Assembly: GCA_002747145.1 (NCBI GenBank)
Contig: PDTI01000010.1
Coordinates: forward strand, 1-51,186
Direction: 5' to 3'
DNA length: 51,186 nt
Source: Desulfobacter postgatei
GTDB taxonomy: Bacteria; Desulfobacterota; Desulfobacteria; Desulfobacterales; Desulfobacteraceae
This document shows, in pieces, positions 27,457-30,699 of the stretch (the first letter of the stretch is position 1; each line of letters begins with the position of its first letter). The notes beneath the pieces were generated by a model. It was not told where the DNA came from and made no database searches. It worked only from the letters and a program-made list of their open reading frames with translations. The position numbers and the translations under genes are program-made.

Positions 27457-28416
27457 TTATAAAGGGAACTCCACCAGGCATACGCCAATTTGTCCACCTG
27501 GATTTATTTGAGTTAAATTCACATCACCAAGTTCTTTAAAAAAACGGATTTGAAGCCGCCCGGTCACAGAATCTTGGTCAGCAGCACCTTCAAAATATTC
27601 TTTTCCAGTATCAGGCGTCAGGCCCTGGGCCATCTGCTCGAAAATTGCCTCTATGTTAAGATGCTGTTGTGTTATACCTTCACTGTCATTTTCATGCACT
27701 TTTATAGAATCAATGTCAAGGGTATTTATCGCCTTGCCTGCACCGGTCAAAAATTGATCCATCACAGCCCTGCTGGTGGTGACCAGAATTGGCATACCTT
27801 CGTGACCAAAGCATTCTGCATCAAAAGCAGCCGTCAGCCAGGCGTTTATTCTTTTTTCAGTCATCTCCTGGCCCGGTTCACAGGGTTGGGTAGCGCCCAT
27901 GGACAGGGGCATTTCCCCCTCTCCTTTAAGTTCGGCAAAAAGTGCCGCACTTTCCTGGTCCAGCGCATCCAGTGCCGCCTGGATATCCTGGGATTCCCGG
28001 TCATGAATATCTGCAAGCTTAAGAAAAACAAGAGAATCATTATTTTCCCGTATCGTTGTTGGCTTCGGGTCATGGGAAGCTATCCCGTTACGGATGCCGG
28101 CTTTGATGGCCGCCACACCTGAATCATCTTTCAAAAACACGTTCTCACGAATCAACGCACGAAGATTTGTTTCATTGCCTTTATGGATGGCGGCCCAGTC
28201 CAGATAGGCGCGGATCTCTTGTTCAGCCAGGGCAAGTTTTTCCCTGTCAAGACAGACCCGCGTCAGCGCGCCTTTGGCCTCCAGACCAGACATCGGTTCG
28301 GGCAGCGTATCACCACCGTGAATATCTATCATATTTAAATTGTTAAAAAAGCAGAACAGGGTATTTGCCTGACGTTTATCCATAAAAGTAAACGGGAAAA
28401 AATAAAGTTTTATCAT
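27457..28416 (-). CDS. Conserved-looking hypothetical protein (nucleoid-associated YejK-like resemblance not established)
   Basis: Open 319 aa frame with a soluble, acidic composition; no motif I can assign. Confidence 0.55.
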   Translation of the reverse strand: MIKLYFFPFTFMDKRQANTLFCFFNNLNMIDIHGGDTLPEPMSGLEAKGALTRVCLDREKLALAEQEIRAYLDWAAIHKGNETNLRALIRENVFLKDDSGVAAIKAGIRNGIASHDPKPTTIRENNDSLVFLKLADIHDRESQDIQAALDALDQESAALFAELKGEGEMPLSMGATQPCEPGQEMTEKRINAWLTAAFDAECFGHEGMPILVTTSRAVMDQFLTGAGKAINTLDIDSIKVHENDSEGITQQHLNIEAIFEQMAQGLTPDTGKEYFEGAADQDSVTGRLQIRFFKELGDVNLTQINPGGQIGVCLVEFPL

Positions 28417-28422
28417 ACCATC

Positions 28423-30699
28423 TTATACCTTTTGGTCATGAATCAGGATCCCCATGTCATCCAACTGTTTCCGGATCCGGTCTGCTGTCTTAAAATCTTT
28501 TTGTTGCCGGGCCGCATCCCGTTCAGCCATGAGCGACGTCACCTCTGACGAATACAATACCTTTGTGCTGAAATCAAACATATTGAGCACCGCATCCATA
28601 TCTTTGAAACAGTTAAGCAGACGCTGTGCCCCCCTGGGTCCCACCTGACCCGCAGCGACCATGCGGTTGATGCGCTTCACACCGGACAAAATACCGGACA
28701 CCAGAACAGGGACCTTGAGATCGTTTGCCATGGCATCCATCATGCCCTGGCGTAAATCATAAGTAATATGCTGGATCTTTTCTTCATTGGACTGCCCGGA
28801 CACATGCCCAAGGGATTCAATGCACCGGTTGATCCGGGAAAGAACGGTTTGGGCATCATCCAGACTTTTTCTGGATAAGCGCAGGGATTTTCTGTAATGG
28901 GCGGACAGCAGCCAAAAGCGAATGGTCTTCTCATCCCACCCCATCTCAACCAACCTGTCCAGGGTCAATGAACCGGCATCATCGGTATCCAGGGACCCGT
29001 CATACTGTATGGGATGGCAATGCATCCACACCCTGGCAAAAGAACCGCCGGCAGCCCTTGCAATGGCAATTTCGTTTTCATGGTGGGGAAACATAAGTTC
29101 CCTTGAGCCCGTATGGATGTCAAAATCTGCACCAAGGAAGGTTGACGCAAAGGCAGCACACTGCAGATGAAGTGAGGGGCGAACATTGCCCCATTCCGTT
29201 TTAACCCCAAGCCCCTGTTTAAGTTCCGAAAGTTTTACCCGCTTGAACAGGGTAAAATCCCTGGGATTGTTCTTTTCATATTCATCCAGGTCTACCGTCG
29301 CTCCCACCCGGATTTTGTTAAGATCCACCCGGGAAAGCTGTCCGTAATCCCCAAAGCTTGACAGGTCAAAGTATACGGAATGCAGTTTTTCATAGGCATG
29401 CTTGCTAACAAGCAGTTTCCTTGCCATATCCGTCATTTCGGTAAAATGTTCGGACACCTTGGGATAGGCCTGGGCCGGCCGCATGCCAAGCCGGGACAAA
29501 TCAGCCAGAAAGACATCAATAAAAGGCTGGGTGAATGCCTCCAGGGAGGTTTTTGCCTGCCTTGCCCCTTCAATGGTTTTATCGTCATAATCGGTGATAT
29601 TAACGATATGTTTAACTTTCACATCCTGATACTCAAGGTAGCGGATAAGCAGATCCGTAAACGCGTACCGTCTGAAGTGGGTAATATCCAGACGCCGGTG
29701 CACCGTAGGCCCGCAGGTGTAAATCCCAACCTCCTTGTCTCCCTGGGGATTAAAAGACTCTTTCTGGCCACCCAGGGAATTGTAAACGGTCAGGTGAATA
29801 TTCTTTTTTACGCTGAACAGCTCAGTGGACAGATAGCGTTCACCTGAATCGGGAAAAATCACAACAATCACCCCGTTTTCAAGACGTTTGGCATGTTCAA
29901 GGGCCACGGCCATGGCTGCGCCTGAACTCATGCCCACAAAAAGGCCCTCCTTTGCAGCCAGTTGCCGGGCCGTCTCAAAAGCTGTGTCATCCTCAATATA
30001 GACGCTTTCATCCAGCAGGGTTTTGTTAAAAATCTCTGGCCGATAAGACTCTTTCATATTTTTAAGCCCCTGGATCCCGTGTCCCAGATAGGGCTCTGCA
30101 CAGATCACCCGGGCATGATGGTCCTGATCCCTGAAATACCGGGACAGTCCCATGAGTGTGCCCGAAGTGCCCACAGTCGCCACCACAGCATCCACCTGAC
30201 CGTTGGTCTGGGCCACAATTTCAGGCCCCGTGGTGTGATAATGGGCTTTCCAGTTGGCCTCATTATTATATTGATCTGTAAGGAAATATTTATCCGGATA
30301 TTCCCTGGCCAGACGGTAGGCTTCCTCAATGGCTCCGTCCGATCCCAGGTGCCGGGGGGTAAGAATAATCCGGGCACCCCGGGCGTTAAGTATTTTTTTA
30401 CGCTCTTCACTGGCGCTTTCGGACATGGTCAGGGCCAGTCTGTAGCCTTTGACCGCACAGATCATGGCAAGGCCGATGCCTGTATTTCCCGAGGTGGCTT
30501 CAATAACTGTTTTTCCAGGCGCAAGTTCGCCGTCTGCCTCGGCCTGGTTGATCATATACAGTGCGGCTCTGTCCTTGATGGACCCGCCAGGGTTCATATA
30601 TTCAAGCTTTGCCAGGATGGTGACGCCCGGCACAGGATTAAGTGTTTGAATTTTTACAAGGGGGGTGTTACCGATGGACTCAATAATGCTTGCATACAT
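28423..30699 (-). CDS. Fusion: N-terminal cysteine synthase + C-terminal cysteinyl-tRNA synthetase-like domain
   Basis: CysK: NTPLVKI, NPGGSIKDRAALYM, IEATSGNTGIGLAMI, VGTSGTLMG, FPDSGERYLS. CysRS-like: IYTCGPTV, NITDYDDKTI, HLQCAAFASTFLGADFDIHTGSRELMFPHHENEIA. Likely ATG at 30699 preceded by AGAGAGGA; track extends to 30777. Confidence 0.93.
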   Translation of the reverse strand: MYASIIESIGNTPLVKIQTLNPVPGVTILAKLEYMNPGGSIKDRAALYMINQAEADGELAPGKTVIEATSGNTGIGLAMICAVKGYRLALTMSESASEERKKILNARGARIILTPRHLGSDGAIEEAYRLAREYPDKYFLTDQYNNEANWKAHYHTTGPEIVAQTNGQVDAVVATVGTSGTLMGLSRYFRDQDHHARVICAEPYLGHGIQGLKNMKESYRPEIFNKTLLDESVYIEDDTAFETARQLAAKEGLFVGMSSGAAMAVALEHAKRLENGVIVVIFPDSGERYLSTELFSVKKNIHLTVYNSLGGQKESFNPQGDKEVGIYTCGPTVHRRLDITHFRRYAFTDLLIRYLEYQDVKVKHIVNITDYDDKTIEGARQAKTSLEAFTQPFIDVFLADLSRLGMRPAQAYPKVSEHFTEMTDMARKLLVSKHAYEKLHSVYFDLSSFGDYGQLSRVDLNKIRVGATVDLDEYEKNNPRDFTLFKRVKLSELKQGLGVKTEWGNVRPSLHLQCAAFASTFLGADFDIHTGSRELMFPHHENEIAIARAAGGSFARVWMHCHPIQYDGSLDTDDAGSLTLDRLVEMGWDEKTIRFWLLSAHYRKSLRLSRKSLDDAQTVLSRINRCIESLGHVSGQSNEEKIQHITYDLRQGMMDAMANDLKVPVLVSGILSGVKRINRMVAAGQVGPRGAQRLLNCFKDMDAVLNMFDFSTKVLYSSEVTSLMAERDAARQQKDFKTADRIRKQLDDMGILIHDQKV

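Follow-up and report, generated by a model that had tools for sequence, protein, structure and literature searches.

The 51,186-nucleotide stretch of Desulfobacter postgatei DNA analyzed here (GenBank assembly GCA_002747145.1, contig PDTI01000010.1; hereafter the window) encodes a single-chain protein in which a CysM-like, PLP-dependent cysteine synthase is joined to a CysRS-like module that has lost the motifs for ATP but retains the residues that read the anticodon. We infer, with a probability of about 0.5 for the reading as a whole, that this protein is a cysteine synthase independent of CysE, and that its silenced CysRS acts as a regulatory module sensing tRNA-Cys and cysteine. Synthetase paralogues recruited to amino-acid biosynthesis are an already known kind of protein, while the fusion itself appears to be undescribed: our full-text search, mostly of papers available without subscription, returned no description of a cysteine synthase-CysRS fusion, and no biochemistry of any member was found in the literature searched. 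If the reading is correct, a synthetase gave up charging and became the built-in controller of the enzyme that makes its own amino acid, with its recognition of tRNA kept.

The fusion gene occupies positions 28423–30699 on the reverse strand of the window and encodes 758 amino acids plus a stop, with the ATG at 30699 and the stop codon at 28425–28423. Residues 1–296 (29812–30699, reverse strand, as are all features below) constitute a CysM-like fold-type II PLP cysteine synthase domain that is matched by PF00291, by TIGR01136 (364.7 bits, NCBIfam cut-off 344) and by CysM and CysK entries in phmmer and Foldseek searches. It is followed by a CysRS-like Rossmann catalytic domain with the stem-contact part (residues 303–620; 28840–29793; PF01406) and, at the C-terminus, by a CysRS anticodon-binding domain (residues 717–757; 28429–28551; PF23493). 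The Pfam matches to the window protein (PALP, residues 7–284; CysRS catalytic, 316–617; CysS_C, 717–757) each exceed their cut-offs. The AlphaFold model has a mean pLDDT of 87.7 and is confident within each domain, with a pTM of 0.66 that makes domain packing uncertain; its top Foldseek match is 1u0b_B (E. coli CysRS in complex with tRNA), ahead of further CysRS structures and of CysK/CysM. The first-pass annotation, made from the sequence alone, had described one 758-aa open reading frame joining CysK to a CysRS-like domain. The fusion and its coordinates hold, but the PLP part is nearer to CysM than to CysK (359 bits for TIGR01138 versus 325 bits for TIGR01139, both NCBIfam) and its best PDB matches by phmmer are CysM enzymes.

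Many genomes have relatives that run over the full length without interruption, which rules out a frameshift, an assembly fault or the chance joining of two genes. Orthologues across the genus are 87–91% identical, full-length relatives occur across the order, and 126 of 298 near-complete Desulfobacterota genomes, about 40% of those sampled, gave a match to the fusion or to part of it; some further matches bear Myxococcales titles. Motif counts given below refer to 146 collected fusions, those for the anticodon domain and the synthase loop to 145, and those for genome content to 80 fusion genomes. The CysRS-like halves fall on one side of a branch that separates them from the housekeeping CysRSs (SH-aLRT 99), and the phylogeny suggested in the first-pass annotation thus places them in a clade of their own. 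In a comparison of 13 Desulfobacter sequences, the synthase domain and the CysRS-like catalytic part gave similar dN/dS values (0.063 and 0.072, respectively), and the C-terminal part a higher one (0.172). Values this low rule out a pseudodomain in decay: the CysRS-like module is under strong purifying selection and functional. Because it is constrained and yet lacks its chemistry, it must have another job. One genome (G033) carries, besides the usual copy, a second, diverged fusion (L151; G033:C1:2258300-2265500) that shares 52% identity with the window protein over residues 58–755.

The loss of the ATP-site motifs, which the first-pass annotation had noticed, is borne out by alignment to E. 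coli CysRS. The HIGH motif (H37-I38-G39-H40) corresponds to D338-I339-T340-H341 in the window protein (DITH; 29677–29688), and KMSKS to L570-D571-gap-T572-D573 within GSLDTDDAG (residues 568–576; 28972–28998), the expected place of KMSKSLGN, showing that the missing KMSKS had not simply been misplaced. HxGH and KMSKS are absent from the whole set (0 of 146 each): every fusion has lost at least one HIGH histidine, and the second lysine of KMSKS is replaced throughout. The least decayed fusions (L146, L150, L142 and L127) have HLGx with KMSRS, and other fusions are without the region. Among 20 ATP-site positions that do not vary in housekeeping CysRSs, 3 reach a retention of 90% or more across the fusions. 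Because these positions vary and no new conserved set has taken their place, the alignment suggests that adenylation was lost rather than altered in this family, and adenylation of cysteine by the fusion appears unlikely. The earlier suggestion of a non-canonical cysteine activation or transfer is consequently not supported, and its variant, persulfide chemistry, fares no better: persulfide synthesis by CysRS reportedly requires the KIIK and KMSKS lysines, whereas the fusions lack KMSKS and the second KIIK lysine and do not retain KIIK as a motif.

A cysteine ligase of the MshC type, which would activate cysteine in some unusual way and join it to a small molecule, deserves mention here, since CysRS paralogues are capable of such ligation (MshC; PMC2922099, PMC9437257) and the NCBIfam MshC model does match the window protein weakly. 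This match amounts to 149 bits against a cut-off of 485. Like the fusion, MshC, the cysteine ligase of mycothiol synthesis, is a CysRS paralogue working outside translation, but MshC keeps the activation chemistry that the fusion has lost, and the fusion keeps the C-terminal domain. With a variable ATP site that is lost family-wide, a retained anticodon domain and no conserved pathway neighbours, a ligase of this kind is very improbable.

Ordinary tRNA charging is very unlikely to be the fusion's job, because a separate CysRS is present in all 80 fusion genomes checked as well as in the window's own genome, and because HIGH and KMSKS are lost. The first-pass annotation had doubted ordinary charging and advised looking for a second canonical cysS; despite a completeness of 57%, the window's genome contains a canonical CysRS with HIGH and KMSKS intact on another contig (C48). 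The possibility that the fusion is the ordinary or sole CysRS is rejected on these grounds. Compared with canonical CysS, the fusion shares the full-length fold, the zinc ligands and the anticodon domain; unlike it, the fusion has neither HIGH nor KMSKS, is joined to a synthase, belongs to a separate clade and reaches 304 bits with the CysRS equivalog TIGR00435 (NCBIfam), below the curated cut-off of 340. Some room for a still-active second CysRS, or for a cysteine persulfide synthase, is left by L150, which keeps HLGN and KMSRS, and by the two genomes whose main CysRS is of HIGN type, indicating that variation is tolerated at the fourth residue of HIGH. Against such activity stand DITH and the missing KMSKS in the window protein, the universal replacement of the second KMSKS lysine, the loss of KIIK and the constant presence of a separate CysRS, and we consider it scarcely credible. 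The two HIGN-type housekeeping enzymes (L170 in G045 and L171 in G152) are about 36% identical to the CysRS of the window's genome.

The residues that read the tRNA show the reverse pattern, a point absent from the first-pass annotation. R727, R731, F736, D740, R743 and D755 of the window protein align with R423, R427, W432, D436, R439 and D451 of E. coli CysRS, which we take to contact the GCA anticodon in structure 1u0b. Four of these six E. coli residues, R423, D436, R439 and D451, recur unchanged in all 145 fusions; R427 is kept in 142 and replaced by Lys in 3, and position 432 is aromatic in all 145. Mean identity among fusions in the other columns of this domain is 33%. The anticodon domain has 8 positions that do not vary in housekeeping CysRSs, and 6 of these reach the same 90% retention, in contrast to the 3 of 20 in the ATP site (Fisher p 0.005). 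Judged from this conservation, the retained C-terminal residues point to tRNA binding, although they could partly be kept for folding. The same residues bear on the idea that the CysRS-like part is an inert passenger that merely stabilizes or oligomerizes the synthase. Lost catalysis and the drift of the zinc sites in several lineages would suit such a part, but a dN/dS of 0.072 in its catalytic portion and invariant tRNA-reading residues amid 33% identity would not, and we regard it as improbable. Slightly easier to entertain, but still doubtful, is a scaffold that binds tRNA-Cys or partners CysRS and, with no allostery involved, passes new cysteine on to translation in cells rich in sulfide. 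Kept tRNA-reading residues, lost catalysis and the covalent link to the synthase are all compatible with channelling; there is, however, no sign of a complex with CysRS, and the benefit is doubtful without chemistry on the tRNA.

The cysteine-binding elements, which the first-pass annotation had considered retained, are indeed in place in the window protein: the zinc ligands C28, C209, H234 and E238 of E. coli CysRS correspond to Cys329 (29713–29715), Cys514 (29158–29160), and His539 and Glu543 in HHENE (residues 539–543; 29071–29085). The complete CCHE set is found in 114 of 146 fusions and both zinc cysteines in 126; zinc-based cysteine sensing could therefore not be universal, as C28 and/or C209 are missing in 20 of 146. 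At the position of cysteine-pocket residue W205 of the E. coli enzyme, the window protein has L510, and Leu is found there in 69 of 146 fusions. Feedback by free cysteine only, with a HisZ-like sensor working through the zinc site and no part for tRNA, would fit the four ligands of the window protein, the frequency of CCHE and the fact that CysE, the usual point of feedback, was not found in 43 of 80 fusion genomes. It is harder to square with the Leu at the pocket position and with the members in which one zinc cysteine or both have disappeared while the fusion itself and the anticodon-domain residues persist (20 of 20), and we hold it to be unlikely. Fusions with lost zinc ligands (TVHV, MMHL, DCHV and similar in place of CCHE) include L145, L147, L112–L119, L123–L126 and L130, L120–L122 being the exceptions within L112–L126; the tRNA-reading residues are kept in these as well.

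The synthase half has both hallmarks of CysK/CysM enzymes, the PLP lysine (Lys42 of NPGGSIKDR; 30574–30576), present in all 143 fusions for which this alignment column exists, and SGNTG, in which S70-T73 is invariant. Its substrate loop, GLKNM (residues 211–215; 30055–30069), occurs in 145 of 145 fusions, as do K213, N214 and E217. K213 aligns with Arg220 in the corresponding ALRNM of M. tuberculosis CysM, presumably the basic phosphate-binding residue of that loop, and the separate CysKs have HKIQGIGAGF at this place. As GLKNM resembles ALRNM, the substrate of the fusion is probably O-phosphoserine, the one used by M. tuberculosis CysM (PMC12910592); the loop is suggestive rather than diagnostic of this use, for Salmonella CysM, an O-acetylserine-type enzyme, also has Arg at the K213 position (GIRRW). 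With the M. tuberculosis O-phosphoserine sulfhydrylase CysM and with O-acetylserine sulfhydrylase B (CysM), the fusion shares the CysM-like PLP domain, the PLP lysine, SGNTG and the GLKNM/ALRNM loop, but it differs in having Lys for Arg220, a 460-residue CysRS-like extension and no link to CysE.

Genome content suggests a synthase that is independent of CysE. CysE was found in 37 of the 80 fusion genomes and not in the other 43, and a separate CysK/CysM accompanies it in 37 of 37 cases, versus 3 of 43 where CysE was not found. Thus 40 of the 80, near-complete genomes that carry about two dozen family labels between them, yielded neither CysE nor any cysteine synthase besides the fusion. Over all 298 genomes, CysE occurs in 61 of 126 with the fusion versus 140 of 172 without it (odds ratio 0.21, p 2.5e-9, uncorrected for relatedness). 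Within the genus, the complete genome G004 has the fusion and SerC, and CysE was not found, whereas CysE is present in other congeners such as G017 and G018. SerC (serC_1, TIGR01364) was detected in only 16 of the 43 fusion genomes lacking CysE; in the others a supply of O-phosphoserine is no more than presumed. MetX was rejected as another source of O-acyl serine, being strong in just 1 of these 43 genomes, and an RNA-dependent cysteine route via SepCysS was rejected as well, SepCysS being found in 0 of 43. A bacterial, tRNA-linked mechanism unrelated to SepRS/SepCysS, with the silenced CysRS offering tRNA-Cys to the PLP domain and activated serine being converted to cysteine either on that tRNA or in a reaction gated by it, would be a long shot.

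In the reading that we prefer, a CysE-independent synthase with a silenced CysRS as its regulator, the N-terminal domain would use sulfide and an activated form of serine (probably O-phosphoserine) to make cysteine. The C-terminal module, devoid of adenylation and aminoacylation, would dock tRNA-Cys via the anticodon domain; in the majority of members, the window protein among them, it could also hold cysteine on zinc. The module could then report cysteine or the charging status of tRNA-Cys to the synthase in cis: uncharged tRNA-Cys might activate the synthase, for example, or zinc-bound cysteine might inhibit it, the direction being a guess. Such a module would be for cysteine what HisZ is for histidine and would stand in for feedback via CysE; it would explain CysE-free cysteine making and its regulation in many sulfate reducers and their relatives, a gap likely to be concealed where automatic annotation names the fusion just cysteine synthase or CysRS. 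Against this reading speaks that about half of the fusion genomes also have CysE with CysK.

One precedent is HisZ, a HisRS paralogue that lost adenylation, regulates HisG and thereby controls its own pathway (PMC9437257). The fusion has the same combination of lost adenylation motifs and a tie to the synthesis of its own amino acid; HisZ, however, is a class II protein and a separate subunit, while the fusion is class I, a single chain, and keeps the tRNA-reading residues. A second parallel is offered by Gcn2, a eukaryotic kinase with a class II, HisRS-like domain, in which the sensing of deacylated tRNA is likewise coupled to amino-acid synthesis; in the fusion, by contrast, control would act directly on the enzyme that makes the amino acid. 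The sensing of deacylated tRNA by Gcn2 is described in PMC7373986.

The neighbourhood of the gene proved to be no guide to function. The only recurrent partner, a conserved 319-aa gene directly downstream of the fusion on the same strand (27457–28416, reverse), is limited to Desulfobacterales; it lies beside the fusion in 51 of 80 loci and in 2 of 40 deeper-sampled loci, has no Pfam or NCBIfam match and yields an AlphaFold model (pLDDT 80) with no PDB fold match. The window neighbours of the fusion are LptD, a GspE-like ATPase and a NusG-type gene. Across the 80 loci and the 40 deeper-sampled ones, no neighbour is conserved phylum-wide, as expected for a general housekeeping enzyme.

For CysRS, a review of synthetase paralogues names only MshC and CysRS* (PMC9437257). 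The latter, described from the same order (Mukai et al. 2017), is also a second CysRS paralogue; it lacks the anticodon domain and charges SelC*, a tRNA with a UCA, non-GCA anticodon (PMC7609411). The fusion is the reverse, having the anticodon domain and, instead of selC*/selB*, the LptD, GspE-like and NusG-type neighbours, whereas putative examples of CysRS* (L174, G319:C32; L175, G177:C61) keep KMSKS. These two proteins are CysRSs of about 420 aa with no anticodon domain and with Asp for zinc Cys209, and they probably represent the CysRS* of the SelC* system. A different CysRS fusion was observed in two further genomes (L172, G077:C1:593000-596600, 742 aa; L173, G114:C27:35000-39500, 729 aa), in which a CysRS-like part with HLGNLR or HIGNLR, KMAKS and the zinc cysteines kept is joined to an apparent C-terminal family 2 glycosyltransferase.
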